Positions 20,313 to 62,857 of a DNA stretch of 64,000 nt are shown here, in pieces. Made by a program: the position numbers and the translations under genes. The notes beneath the pieces were generated by a model. The model made no database searches. It saw only the letters and a program-made list of their open reading frames with translations, and was not told the origin of the DNA. The DNA comes from Pseudomonadota bacterium (lineage in GTDB: Bacteria > Desulfobacterota > Desulfobacteria > Desulfobacterales > RPRI01). The stretch's first letter is position 1; each line of letters starts with the position of its first letter. The stretch lies in assembly GCA_018817425.1 (NCBI GenBank), contig JAHITX010000001.1, forward strand, positions 62,001-126,000, in the 5' to 3' direction.

Positions 20313-20744
20313 CTACATTTTTATAAAATTAGTTGAATCAAAACCGGCTATAAGGTATTCCTCAATATCTATTTTGATTAATGCTACATCAGGACTGTTT
20401 ATAAAAGCTGACAGATGTGGATGTTTTTCTATGTAAAGAGTTGTCCATATATTTTCTTTTTTAACATCCTGTTCTTTGGCATTACCTTTTGCTGTTACTG
20501 CTGCTGCCTGCTTGAAATCCGATTCACGATTCGACCTGTTGTCGATCAACATCGCTACACGCGGGTTTGAACAAATATCGGTATACTTTCGAGTCTTTCT
20601 GCTTGTTGCAAACAAAAGGTGTTTCAAATCATCGGAAAACGCAAAGGCGACCAGGCAGCAATGTGGTTGATCTCCACTATGTGTGGCAAGTACAGCAAGA
20701 GTTTCTGAAGCAAATAATTGTTTTAAGTCTGAAAGTTCTTTCAT
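20313..20744 (-). CDS. Pyridoxamine 5'-phosphate oxidase-like FMN-binding protein
   Basis: 143 aa from the ATG at 20744, with GAGG just upstream. The N-terminus is a PNPOx-like split barrel (LFASETLAVLATHSGDQPHCCLVAFAFSDDLKHLLFATSRKTRKYTDICSNPRVAMLIDNR). Stand-alone proteins of this size bind FMN, F420 or heme, so the specific enzyme cannot be called. It converges with the rhodanese-ferritin gene, separated by six bases. Confidence 0.8.
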   Translation of the reverse strand: MKELSDLKQLFASETLAVLATHSGDQPHCCLVAFAFSDDLKHLLFATSRKTRKYTDICSNPRVAMLIDNRSNRESDFKQAAAVTAKGNAKEQDVKKENIWTTLYIEKHPHLSAFINSPDVALIKIDIEEYLIAGFDSTNFIKM

Positions 20745-20773
20745 ATTTTTCCTCAAGTTTTAATCAAATATTA

Positions 20774-20937
20774 GAGCCAGTTTCAAAACGCCCCATTTTG
20801 GCCGATCTCTGCGTTGGGCTCAAATTTCGCACGGAGTGAAGCTTTAGCGCTATCCTCGAAATACTCAATGTATTCCTGCGGTTGAAATTTTCGCCCGCCT
20901 TGAGCTTGACCAAACTGAAACGTTTTGAAAGTGGCTC
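20774..20937 (-). mobile_element. MITE-like element copy 1 (164 bp)
   Basis: Reverse orientation (begins GAGCCAGTTTCAAAACGCCCC, ends ...AAAGTGGCTC). Imperfect terminal inverted repeats are about 28 bp, and the element carries the internal insert GCACGGAGTGAAGC...CTATCC. It is flanked by the 4-bp direct repeat ATTA on both sides. It lies between the PNPOx-like gene and the epimerase gene. Confidence 0.88.
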
Positions 20938-20971
20938 ATTAGTGGTAGCTATTATACTGATGCTATGTTTA

Positions 20972-22039
20972 TCAAACATTGGCATCGATTACATATCTTA
21001 AAGCTTTTTCCAGATCCGGATAAGCAAATTTAAAATCTGCATTTATAAGCCGTTCGGGTATAGCCTGGTTGCTGAAAAGCAGTTCTTCTTCAGCCATTTG
21101 CCCGAACAATATTTTTAAAACCGGGCCCGGCAAATTTAATACAGCCGGGCGATTAATTACCTTTCCCAGTATTTTTGCAAATTGATAATTTGTTACAGGA
21201 TTTGGTGTGCAAAGATTTACAGCGCCCTTTATGAAATTATTATGCAGTATAAAATCCATGGCATCCATAAGATCGCTCATTACTATCCAGCTTAAGTACT
21301 GTGTGCCGGGTCCCATTGAAGCTCCAAGCCCCAGCTTAAAATACGGTAAAAGTCTTTTTATCATGCCGCCTTTCATACTTAAAACCGGAGCTATTCTTAA
21401 ATGAGCAACCCTTATACCGGCATCTTCAGCCGGTTTGGTTTCCGCTTCCCATTTTTTACATACATCTGCAAGAAAACCTTTACCGGGAGAAGTAGCCTCG
21501 GTAACAATTTGTCGCCCCTGATCGCCATAGATACCTATACCTGAAGAAGACAGCATTACTTGCGGTTTCGGGTCAAGAGAAGCTATAGTTTTGCTTATAA
21601 GATGCGTTCCTGCAATTCTGCTGGATAATATTTTCTCTTTCTTTTTTATAGTCCAGCGGCTATCCCCCACATTTTCTCCGGCCAAATGAATTACGGCATC
21701 AAAAGATATTTTATCGGAAAGTTCAATTATATTGTTTTCAATATCCCAGAACAATCCTGATTCAGGTTTTTTCCCACGTTCCAGTTTAAAAATGCGATGC
21801 CCTTTTGCAGATAGATAAGGCAACAGCGCTGAACCTATAAAACCCGATGCCCCTGTGATCAGAATATCCATAGAACCAGTTTCAAAACGCCCCAGTTTGG
21901 CCGATCTCTGCGTTGGGCTCAAATTTCGCACGGAGTGAAGCTTTAGCGCTATCCTCGAAATACTAAATGTATTCCTGCGGTTGAAATTTTCTCCCGCCTT
22001 GAGCTTGACCAAACTGAAACGTTTTGAAAGTGGCTCCAT
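20972..22039 (-). CDS. NAD-dependent epimerase (TIGR01777/YfcH-like) with MITE-encoded N-terminal extension
   Basis: The family part begins at the ATG at 21871 (MDILITGASGFIGSALL, the Rossmann GxxGxxG) and is 299 aa. VIHLAGENVGD, SSSGIGIYG (with the Tyr of YxxxK-type SDRs absent or shifted, as usual in this family) and the C-terminal DUF1731 region (ILFGQMAEEELLFSNQAIPERL) fit TIGR01777 proteins. The reading frame continues upstream through element copy 2 to the ATG at 22039, which is the other copy of the target duplication. This adds 56 residues ending GRFETGS. No Shine-Dalgarno sequence is visible before 21871. The ATG at 22039 is ten bases after the SRPBCC stop, where coupled translation would be expected. 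The true protein may therefore carry the extension. Function within the SDR group unknown. Confidence 0.8.
   Translation of the reverse strand: MEPLSKRFSLVKLKAGENFNRRNTFSISRIALKLHSVRNLSPTQRSAKLGRFETGSMDILITGASGFIGSALLPYLSAKGHRIFKLERGKKPESGLFWDIENNIIELSDKISFDAVIHLAGENVGDSRWTIKKKEKILSSRIAGTHLISKTIASLDPKPQVMLSSSGIGIYGDQGRQIVTEATSPGKGFLADVCKKWEAETKPAEDAGIRVAHLRIAPVLSMKGGMIKRLLPYFKLGLGASMGPGTQYLSWIVMSDLMDAMDFILHNNFIKGAVNLCTPNPVTNYQFAKILGKVINRPAVLNLPGPVLKILFGQMAEEELLFSNQAIPERLINADFKFAYPDLEKALRYVIDANV
21873..22036 (-). mobile_element. MITE-like element copy 2 (164 bp), inserted at a start codon
   Basis: Reverse orientation (GAACCAGTTTCAAAACG... to ...AAAGTGGCTC). It is flanked by the perfect 4-bp direct repeat CATA (21869-21872 and 22037-22040). 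Each copy of that repeat contains the ATG of the minus-strand epimerase gene. Insert plus duplication is 168 bp, a multiple of three, and is free of stop codons in the gene's frame. Confidence 0.92.
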
Positions 22040-22049
22040 AGTTTACCGT

Positions 22050-22517
22050 TTAAAAGTTAGATTCTTTTAAAAATATACCTTTAATTGTTTTTAGCCTGTA
22101 ATCGAAAATTCTGTTTAACTGTCTTCTCACAATCGGGTACGCTATTTCACCCATAGGCCATAACGGTAGCCGGTAAGTGACGCTGTCTTCTATTGTAGTA
22201 TTGCCGTTTTCTTTATAAAATCTGTGCGTGTGTTCCCATATTTTGTAAGGCCCTTTTTCCACCTGGGTATCCATAAATTCAAAGGGAGGGTTCCATTTAC
22301 ATATTTCTGAGCGCCAGCGAAAAGGTATCTTAAAAAGACTCATCTGATAATCGATAATAGTTCCTTTTGCAATTTCAATCGGCAGGGGGCTAAGTATTTT
22401 AAAATTAAGCTCCGGCGGAGTGATTCTTTGCAGATTTTTCACATCGCAAAAAAACTGAAAAACTTTTTCAATATTAAACGGCAATTTCATTGATCTTGTG
22501 ATAAGATGATTTTTCAT
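22050..22517 (-). CDS. SRPBCC family (ligand-binding/cyclase-like) protein
   Basis: 155 aa from the ATG at 22517 (a TTG 12 codons upstream is possible). The N-terminal helix-grip pattern is visible: TRSMKLPFNIEKVFQFFCDVKNLQRITPPELNFKIL. Further strands follow, ending in EDSVTYRLPLWPMGEIAYPIVRRQLNRIFDYR, as in the START/SRPBCC proteins that often neighbour TIGR01777 epimerases. It is the gene upstream of that epimerase on the same strand, with only ten bases between their original ends, so they were an operon. Ligand unknown. Confidence 0.82.
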   Translation of the reverse strand: MKNHLITRSMKLPFNIEKVFQFFCDVKNLQRITPPELNFKILSPLPIEIAKGTIIDYQMSLFKIPFRWRSEICKWNPPFEFMDTQVEKGPYKIWEHTHRFYKENGNTTIEDSVTYRLPLWPMGEIAYPIVRRQLNRIFDYRLKTIKGIFLKESNF

Positions 22518-60348: not shown

Positions 60349-61725
60349 ATGAAAAAATTAAAAGTGATAAACCTTGAAGATAGCCCTACTGATTCTTTAC
60401 TTATTCAGGAAATACTTTCGGAAGATAAAATTGAATGTGAAGTTATCCGCATAGATACGGAAGAAAGGTTTATTTCTGAAATTGAGAAAGGTGATATAGA
60501 TATAATTCTTGCTGACTACACCCTTCCCTCTTTTGACGGACTTTCTGCCTTGGATATTGCGCTTAAAAAGCTACCGGAAGTTCCTTTTATATTTGTTACC
60601 GGAACACTAGGTGAGGAGATCGCAGTTGAATCATTAAAAAGAGGCGCCACCGATTATGTACTTAAAGATAGACTGATGCGCCTCGCGCTATCGGTTAAAA
60701 GGGCTTTAAGAGATGCAGAATTAAGAAAAGAACAAAAACGCAAAGATGCTGCCTTACGTGAATCGGAGGAGCAATTCAGAGAGCTTGTTGAAAATATAAA
60801 TGATGTATTTTTTATGGCAGATGAAAAAGGTATTATAACCTATATCAGCGACCCGATAGAATCATTCTGGGGATATAAACCATCAGAAATCATCGGTTAT
60901 ACTTTTCTGGATTTTATTTACTCTGAAGATCTTCCCATGGTTGAGAAAATATTTAACGATAATAAATCAGAATACCTCACACCACTTGAGTTCAGGCTTG
61001 TTAAGAAAACAGGCGAAATTATATGGGTCCGTTTATCAGGCCGAAATATAATACGGGAAAACAAAATTATTGATTCGCGCGGGTTGTTGATAAACATAAC
61101 CGAAAGCAAAAAGAGCGAAGAAAAGCTCAAGGAAAGTTTTGAAAGGTTGCAAAAAGCCACCAGCGGAATTATTCAAGCTATGACTTTAACAATTGAAGCC
61201 AGAGATCCTTATACTGCTGGCCATCAGAGGCGAGTGGCTGCGCTATCCAAAGCTATAGCAATTGAGATGAATCTTCCTGCCCAAATGATTGAAGGAATTG
61301 AAATAGCAGCATCAATTCACGATCTTGGCAAGTTATCGGTACCAGCCGATATTTTAAGCAAGCCTTCCAAATTGAGTGATATTGAAATGCAGTTTATACA
61401 AACTCATCCTGATGCAGGTTACAATATTTTAAAAGATGTCGAATTTCCCTGGCCTGTTGCACAGATAATTTTACAGCATCATGAAAGAATTAATGGCTCA
61501 GGTTATCCGAAAGGCATTGAGGGAGAAAATATTCTTCTTGAAACACGAATATTGAGCGTAGCAGATGTTGTAGAGGCTATGGCATCACATCGACCGTACC
61601 GCGCAGCTATGGGAATTGACAAAGCGCTTGAGGAAATCAGGGAAAATAAAAATATTCTCTATGACCCTGAAGTTGTAAAGGCTTGTCTTACAGTTTTTGA
61701 GGAAAAAGGCTTTGATTTTGAGTAA
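60349..61725 (+). CDS. Response regulator with PAS and HD-GYP domains
   Basis: 458 aa from the ATG at 60349 (AGGAGA before it). Residues ~1-125 form a receiver (VINLEDSPTDSLLIQEIL, phospho-Asp in DIILADYTLPSFDGL, Lys in VLKDRL). Residues ~140-270 form a PAS domain (FRELVENINDVFFMADEKGIITYISDPIESFWGY). The C-terminus is HD-GYP (GHQRRVAALSKAIA, IHDLGKLSVPADIL, HHERINGSGYPKGIEG), a cyclic-di-GMP phosphodiesterase domain with the catalytic HD and GYP motifs. It would lower c-di-GMP when phosphorylated. Its histidine kinase is not in the window. Confidence 0.92.
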   Translation: MKKLKVINLEDSPTDSLLIQEILSEDKIECEVIRIDTEERFISEIEKGDIDIILADYTLPSFDGLSALDIALKKLPEVPFIFVTGTLGEEIAVESLKRGATDYVLKDRLMRLALSVKRALRDAELRKEQKRKDAALRESEEQFRELVENINDVFFMADEKGIITYISDPIESFWGYKPSEIIGYTFLDFIYSEDLPMVEKIFNDNKSEYLTPLEFRLVKKTGEIIWVRLSGRNIIRENKIIDSRGLLINITESKKSEEKLKESFERLQKATSGIIQAMTLTIEARDPYTAGHQRRVAALSKAIAIEMNLPAQMIEGIEIAASIHDLGKLSVPADILSKPSKLSDIEMQFIQTHPDAGYNILKDVEFPWPVAQIILQHHERINGSGYPKGIEGENILLETRILSVADVVEAMASHRPYRAAMGIDKALEEIRENKNILYDPEVVKACLTVFEEKGFDFE

Positions 61726-62857
61726 CCCAGCAACATTAATTGAAACTTCATCTGCATTAAAACATGCGCTGCAAAACATAAAAGAAGATAAAATGATTGG
61801 CTTTGACCTTGAAGCTGACTCTATGCATCATTTTCCGGAAAAAGTCTGTTTACTCCAGGTTGCATCAAAAAATTATCTTTTCGCAATTGATACTATAAAG
61901 CTAAAAGATTTATCACTTTTAAAACCCATCTTTTCAAATAAAGATATTAAAAAAATATTCCATGGCGCTGATTATGATATTCGCTCTCTTTTCCGTGATT
62001 TTAATATTGAAATAAAAAATCTTTTTGATACCGAACTTGCTTCAAGATTTCTGGGAATCAGGGAAACAGGTCTTGAGGCTGTAATTCGGCAACGGTTTAA
62101 TGTATTTCTTGAAAAGAAATACACGAAAAGAGACTGGTCAAAAAGACCGTTAATTGACGATATGTTAAATTATGCGATTGATGACGTAAGGTATCTTGTT
62201 TCTCTTTACGAAATCCTCGAAAAGGAACTTGATAATATTGGGCGTTTGTCCTGGGTTAGGGAAGAATGCGATATATTATGCAGTGTAAGACCGGATAAGA
62301 ACAATGGTGAACCTCTTTTTTTAAAATTCAAGGGGGCTGGAAAGCTTAAGCCGGAAAACCTTGCTATTCTTGAGGCGCTTCTTTGTTTTAGAAAAGAAAT
62401 TGCACTGAAAAAAAATGTGCCATTTTTTAAAATAATAGGGAATACTTCATTGCTAAAACTTGCCGAAGCAAGACCGGACAGTATAAATAAAATTGTAAAC
62501 ACAAATGCATTATCCAATAAACAAATGGATATATATGGCAAGGATCTGCTTATTATAATACATAAAGCCATAAAAACACCCAAAGAGATGCTTCCAGTTT
62601 ATCCGAAAAAAAAGACTCCTGCAATATCCCCTGCTGCTTTAAAGCGGATCGAAGAGATTAAAACATGGAGAAATCATAAGGCAATAGAACTTAAGATTGA
62701 TCCTGGGATCTTGCTAAATAAAGCGCTGCTAACCGCTATAGGCACAAAAAATCCTGTTTCTTTGTCAGAACTTAAACAAATTAGCGAAATGAAAAACTGG
62801 CAGAAATCAGAGTTTGGAGAAGAGATATTAAGTGTTCTAAGAAAAGATAAAGATTAG
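61697..62857 (+). CDS. rnd: Ribonuclease D-like 3'-5' exonuclease
   Basis: 386 aa from TTG at 61697; TTG codons at 61712 and 61718 are better placed after GAGG/AAGG, so the first ~5-7 residues are uncertain. DEDD exonuclease motifs: GFDLEADSM (I), IFHGADYDIRSL (II) and YAIDDVRYL (III). HRDC-type regions follow (AILEALLCFRKEIALKKNVPFFKIIGNTSLLKLAEARP and a second one). RNase D trims 3' ends of stable RNAs. It overlaps the HD-GYP gene end by up to 29 bases. Confidence 0.9.
   Translation: MRKKALILSNPATLIETSSALKHALQNIKEDKMIGFDLEADSMHHFPEKVCLLQVASKNYLFAIDTIKLKDLSLLKPIFSNKDIKKIFHGADYDIRSLFRDFNIEIKNLFDTELASRFLGIRETGLEAVIRQRFNVFLEKKYTKRDWSKRPLIDDMLNYAIDDVRYLVSLYEILEKELDNIGRLSWVREECDILCSVRPDKNNGEPLFLKFKGAGKLKPENLAILEALLCFRKEIALKKNVPFFKIIGNTSLLKLAEARPDSINKIVNTNALSNKQMDIYGKDLLIIIHKAIKTPKEMLPVYPKKKTPAISPAALKRIEEIKTWRNHKAIELKIDPGILLNKALLTAIGTKNPVSLSELKQISEMKNWQKSEFGEEILSVLRKDKD

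Follow-up and report, generated by a model that had tools for sequence, protein, structure and literature searches.

A palindromic mobile element inserted precisely on the start codon of a bacterial epimerase gene, with duplication of the ATG

In-frame fusions between MITEs and ORFs are described as not unusual in the available part of a review (PMC10969869), where the Rickettsia palindromic elements (RPEs) are the extreme case. RPEs are palindromes of about 150 bp which lie in frame in host genes and add a peptide to the product, and in this they are like the case described here. According to the same excerpt, however, RPEs are frequent in genes and have a conserved peptide, whereas the present element lies mostly outside ORFs and its open frame is not above that of shuffled sequences. 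RU elements have been reported fused at the N-termini of ORFs, in one case within a predicted signal peptide (Delihas 2007, PMC2759123); the part of that paper available contained no case of a start codon inside a target duplication. The RU-1 and RU-2 elements, which are ERIC-like, belong to other, enterobacterial hosts, and are likened to the present element by description alone (PMC2759123, same excerpt). Another paper, as far as its text was available, mentions such mobile elements in passing only (PMC13277301). Proteins in which SRPBCC and TIGR01777 are fused have the enzyme domain in common with the protein described here, and in both the addition stands before the first strand. Their addition is a folded domain family, however, whereas here it is an element-derived tail.

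In a literature search of titles and the openings of abstracts, with most subscription papers outside its scope, no bacterial MITE with a start codon in its duplication was found, nor was the present element. The mechanism is ordinary and already known; the position is unusually precise. The locus is a clean natural experiment, complete with ancestral empty sites, in how a bacterial gene responds to a palindromic element on its start codon, as one of its two ATGs has the old leader and the other the old N-terminus.

The window is the whole stretch of 64,000 nucleotides that was analysed and belongs to genome G000; labels beginning with G, C and L denote the genomes, contigs and loci that were compared. 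Its features are collected in Table 1.

Table 1. Coordinates in the window of the element copies, target duplications and neighbouring genes
Feature	Position	Strand	Remarks
MITE-like element copy 2	21873-22036	-	164 bp; with the outer ATG, first 56 codons of the fused ORF
Target-site duplication CATA, inner copy	21869-21872		Contains inner ATG 21871-21869 (minus strand)
Target-site duplication CATA, outer copy	22037-22040		Contains outer ATG 22039-22037 (minus strand)
Fused ORF, 355 aa	20972-22039	-	TIGR01777 (YfcH-like epimerase) domain at residues 59-347
Ancestral epimerase gene, 299 aa	20972-21871	-	Start aligns with the ATG of the G006 and G009 orthologues
SRPBCC (Polyketide_cyc) partner gene	22050-22517	-	Directly upstream of the epimerase; start at ATG 22517 by orthologue alignment (TTG 22553 in the ORF list)
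CTG codon	21893-21895	-	ATG (the element's own start codon) in the other 11 aligned copies
Element copy 1	20774-20937	-	Beyond the epimerase stop; own ATTA duplication on both flanks

Copy 2, with inverted ends GAACCAGTTTCAAAACG and CGTTTTGAAAGTGGCTC, lies between the two CATA copies, each with its minus-strand ATG, and the coordinates agree with what the sequence-only reading had described. As the element (164 bp) and the duplication (4 bp) add up to 168 bp, the epimerase frame is kept, and there is no stop in frame; the claim of an open frame across the insertion was correct, and the protein read from the outer ATG begins MEPLSKRFSLVK. The fused ORF scored 305.4 bits with the TIGR01777 profile (curated cut-off 207.35), and only its epimerase part was covered. 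Ten bases were counted between the SRPBCC stop and the outer ATG, as had been stated, and 178 nt separate that stop from the inner ATG. No Rfam families were found in 20600-22200. Elsewhere in the window, at 62857, a lone element end gives the last base of the stop codon of ORF 61697-62857 (RNase D-like by eye).

The two closest orthologues of the epimerase, 75% and 70% identical, are those of G006 and G009. In both, no element is present and the SRPBCC stop overlaps the epimerase ATG (ATGA, in the sequence TCATGA). In the alignment this ATG falls on the window's inner ATG, the two orthologues start at the same Met in the protein alignment, and their leaders, TTAAGCGGTAACTC and GAGCGGTAATTC, align with the window sequence preceding the outer ATG, TTAAACGGTAAACT. 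These empty sites mark the inner ATG as the ancestral start, so that the gene now has two start codons, and they agree with the earlier proposal of a precise insertion on the start codon with duplication of the ATG. An insertion common to the two closest orthologues was rejected because both sites are empty; the insertion at the epimerase start was seen in one genome only. A 56-residue region without the element, the finding that would have told against the earlier proposal, was absent from these two orthologues. The comparison with relatives lacking the first 56 residues was answered by G006 and G009, which have neither element nor extension. For the other enzyme matches among those listed it was answered only in part: no match begins before residue 29, and none therefore covers the whole extension, and the other 22 alignment rows, being match regions and not whole proteins, are uninformative on upstream sequence. 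A scan of the genome contigs gave only distant enzyme homologues (45% identical at best).

Pairing with the anti-Shine-Dalgarno sequence was calculated for both start codons, using an assumed sequence, ACCUCCUUA, which may not be that of this genome. The values were -3.0 kcal/mol for the outer ATG and -2.2 kcal/mol for the inner ATG, with -3.5 and -3.6 kcal/mol for the G006 and G009 orthologues. As controls, the median was -3.8 for 41 first-ATG starts (window ORFs of at least 200 codons) and -2.1 for 300 random places. The statement that the inner ATG has no visible ribosome site is therefore upheld; the site of the outer ATG is itself weak. The whole region was predicted to fold with -82.4 kcal/mol (z -7.7 against shuffles), the two AUGs pairing with each other at the base of the predicted hairpin. 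The stretch of 71 nt that exists before transcription of the 3' arm was predicted to be unusually open (MFE -7.4, z +2.1).

Initiation at the outer ATG is the best reading of these data. Translational coupling can survive there, as the upstream stop is only 10 nt away, and the open first 71 nt would leave this ATG reachable during transcription with its old context kept. The inner ATG has neither advantage, and at its distance from the stop the ancestral coupling is lost. Against an outer start, the modelled hairpin has its start at the outer AUG, where it could prevent initiation. The proposed translation from the outer start through the element thus has a plausible case, made up of leader, pairing and the open 71 nt, in so far as prediction can provide it.

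The course of events proposed is as follows, and as a whole we think it reasonably probable. A non-autonomous palindromic mobile element transposed into the junction of the split SRPBCC/epimerase pair, and its 4-bp target duplication chanced to cover the epimerase ATG; the empty sites show that two start codons resulted. The outer ATG kept the initiation context of the old start, so this is where ribosomes most likely begin. Read-through would then produce a 355-aa protein with a basic, unstructured tail of 56 residues before the first Rossmann strand. The long hairpin probably lowers the yield, as both AUGs would be paired whenever the element is fully transcribed and free of ribosomes, and the tail would be tolerated and not functional.

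Ribosomes might use the inner, ancestral ATG alone, in which case the element would be a hairpin in the 5' UTR and the protein would be unchanged, with the N-terminus of the two closest orthologues. This is unlikely, given a ribosome site not above random and a position at the stem base, far from the upstream stop and uncoupled from it. Ribosomes starting at the outer ATG would, judging from the fold, melt the hairpin and expose the inner ATG, so that both starts could be used to give long and short isoforms in similar amounts; the inner ATG would be inside a translated frame without a ribosome site, however, and this outcome seems very improbable.

A further alternative is that the insertion mostly silences the epimerase and that the gene is decaying. 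The strong hairpin over both starts favours this, as do an excess of lineage-specific amino-acid changes and the presence of a distant paralogue (37% identical, on G000 contig C33), which might make loss of the epimerase tolerable. With G009 as the outgroup, 34 epimerase residues were unique to G000 and 17 to G006; for the SRPBCC partner the counts were 7 and 12. The excess may reflect looser constraint on the epimerase along the line to G000, but the element seems too recent to account for it: copy 2 has only two private changes, so that the insertion is probably younger than most of the 34. The 299-codon frame is also intact, and dN/dS is 0.18 between G000 and G006 (0.13 between G006 and G009). 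Silencing is therefore quite unlikely, and outer-ATG initiation is kept as the preferred reading.

On this reading the enzyme probably has 56 additional, floppy residues. In the AlphaFold model, residues 1-51 had pLDDT below 50, except residue 38, and the core was confident; there were no relatives of the tail in the AlphaFold alignment, so the low pLDDT is weak evidence of disorder. To have something N-terminal to strand 1 is normal for the TIGR01777 family. In both 460-aa homologues scanned (L034 and L044) an SRPBCC (Polyketide_cyc) domain is N-terminal to TIGR01777, and in one of them it is 31% identical to the SRPBCC of the window over 143 aa. As this domain occupies the same place in two full-length homologues, the tail is unlikely to clash. 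SRPBCC and TIGR01777 thus form one protein in L034 and L044, and in G000, G006 and G009 they are encoded by separate genes that overlap or adjoin.

Among 12 aligned copies of the 163-165 bp class, copy 2 has two private changes. One is silent (GGC to GGT); the other turned the ATG of the element itself, eight codons ahead of the inner ATG, into CTG. Copy 2 has one fully open frame, but shuffles do as well (P 0.55), and selection for a coding frame in the element was therefore rejected; the 188-bp form tested had no fully open frame. The suggestion that the element had become a stable N-terminal domain is not supported by these results: pLDDT is very low, the insertion was seen in one genome only, private changes are two, and the frame is no longer than in shuffles.

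With copy 2 as the query, at least 42 matches were found in G000 (40 of 279 candidates scored). End motifs with at most one mismatch occurred 201 times forward and 211 times reverse in G000, against 0 and 1 for a reversed control pattern, and element matches were present in 52 of the 96 genomes searched, the window's own included. Full copies are 142-190 bp long (85 among the G000 loci sampled) and have terminal inverted repeats, with GAGCCASTTTCAAAACG-like ends on both sides. An exact target duplication was seen in 46 of 80 script-paired copies (42 of 4 bp, 4 of 5 bp) and none in the other 34; this count takes in the window copy, whose pairing was set by hand. The duplications are AT-rich with no fixed motif. 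The element is therefore short and multi-copy, with terminal inverted repeats and a target-site duplication of fixed length, as in a MITE. When the flanks were rejoined, 62 of the 80 sites were outside any ORF of at least 100 codons, by crude ORF calls, and the other 18 were at most 126 bp from an ORF end. Neither the frequent in-frame insertion inside genes nor the conserved open frame of an RPE-like element was found.

Allowing the ends a one-base shift, 96 of the 137 copies from all loci had a 4-bp duplication, and among these 96 only the window copy has a duplication that encloses the complete start codon of a long ORF. By a rough estimate made by hand (2 of about 150 tolerated positions per gene), about one such case is expected if copies survive mainly between genes, and the match to the start codon is not beyond chance. 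By a looser criterion, a long-ORF stop codon overlapped the junction or lay within a few bases of it in 11 of the 96. For 32 of the 85 G000 copies, length plus 4 bp keeps the frame.

All 137 copies were screened for frames of at least 60 codons running from the element into the flank, and the 43 frames obtained were judged by eye. By eye, 2 of the 85 G000 copies are fused to a gene N-terminus; the G006 loci and some G000 loci were picked for long open frames, so that no fusion rate can be taken from them. In G006 a 143-bp copy lies in frame inside the cleavable leader of gspG (L164 1134-1727, G006:C175; TIGR01710). The protein reads MQKKYILT[element]RG-FTLIE, and the two copies of the duplication, AGGA and AAGA, differ by one mismatch. 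The ATG has a strong ribosome site (-9.7) before it, and the frame runs from this ATG through the element into the prepilin. G000 gspG is an empty site with a leader of equal length, and the G006 gene is a parallel, within the same element family, for the read-through proposed in the window. In G000 itself a 142-bp copy without duplication breaks the old start of gspH (L134 6668-6809, G000:C20; TIGR01708 at 44.3 bits, a partial match below the cut-off of 80). Read from the old ATG, whose position was taken from a comparison with G005 and G008, the frame runs into a stop within the element; the best in-frame start is the ATG of the element itself, giving the prepilin leader MGRFETGYSG-FTLIE.

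In thpR of G088 (L062/L229; TIGR02258; duplication TGAT) the old frame likewise stops, and the element's ATG is the best in-frame start, giving MGRFEIGSDTIRAF. Insertion and start are the same in G096 (L230), and thpR of G024 and G014 begins MSDTIR without the element. A long-conserved insertion is made less likely by the closer kinship of G096 with G024, whose site is empty, than with G088 (site patterns 29, 13, 9). Over the element pieces that align between G088 and G096, 134 of 137 bases agree (about 98%, not counting indels between the pieces), and the gene is far less alike (dS 0.87). Recombination, precise loss or two insertions are possible explanations of this sequence pattern. In G003 a 143-bp element lies in frame in the signal-peptide N-region of a lipoprotein (L084/L220, G003:C159), with a strong ribosome site (-8.7), another frame of the element in use and no duplication seen. 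Without the element part, residues 1-85 of this protein were matched in G000, G001, G002, G006 and G008; in G004 the match covered only 5-85, and two genomes further away gave 10-83 or 6-85. RimM (named by eye) of G004 (L071) was not kept as a fusion, since translation probably begins at a GTG directly outside the element; other candidates, among them the excisionase-like ORF of L171, were dropped on inspection by eye as having a Met of their own downstream of the element.

The window case, together with gspG, gspH, thpR and the lipoprotein, suggests that N-termini, above all cleavable leaders, let such elements enter genes and survive. In 11 of the 12 aligned copies (164-bp class) an ATG lies 23 bp before the end, and in 9 the sequence is exactly ATGGGGCGTTTTGAAACTGGCTC, encoding MGRFETGS, so that a copy landing in phase would supply a start in place of that of the host. 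The family might, tentatively, be regarded as a portable N-terminus. The window would differ, on this still doubtful reading, in that the element's ATG is now CTG and the duplicated host ATG is used.

A search of G000 for one transposase family, DDE_Tnp_1, gave four matches, and no transposase bounded by element ends was found among them. One (L162) has a typical 142-bp copy nearby; another (L159) is a transposase broken into two ORFs, and the ends on either side of it are poor, with 4 mismatches each, and show no duplication. In L114, two imperfect ends that form a 2.1-kb pair enclose no transposase-like ORF by eye. Element ends also lie about 121-141 bp from the starts of G000 contigs C8, C11, C19, C20, C30, C35 and C36, where the assembly probably broke at the element repeat.
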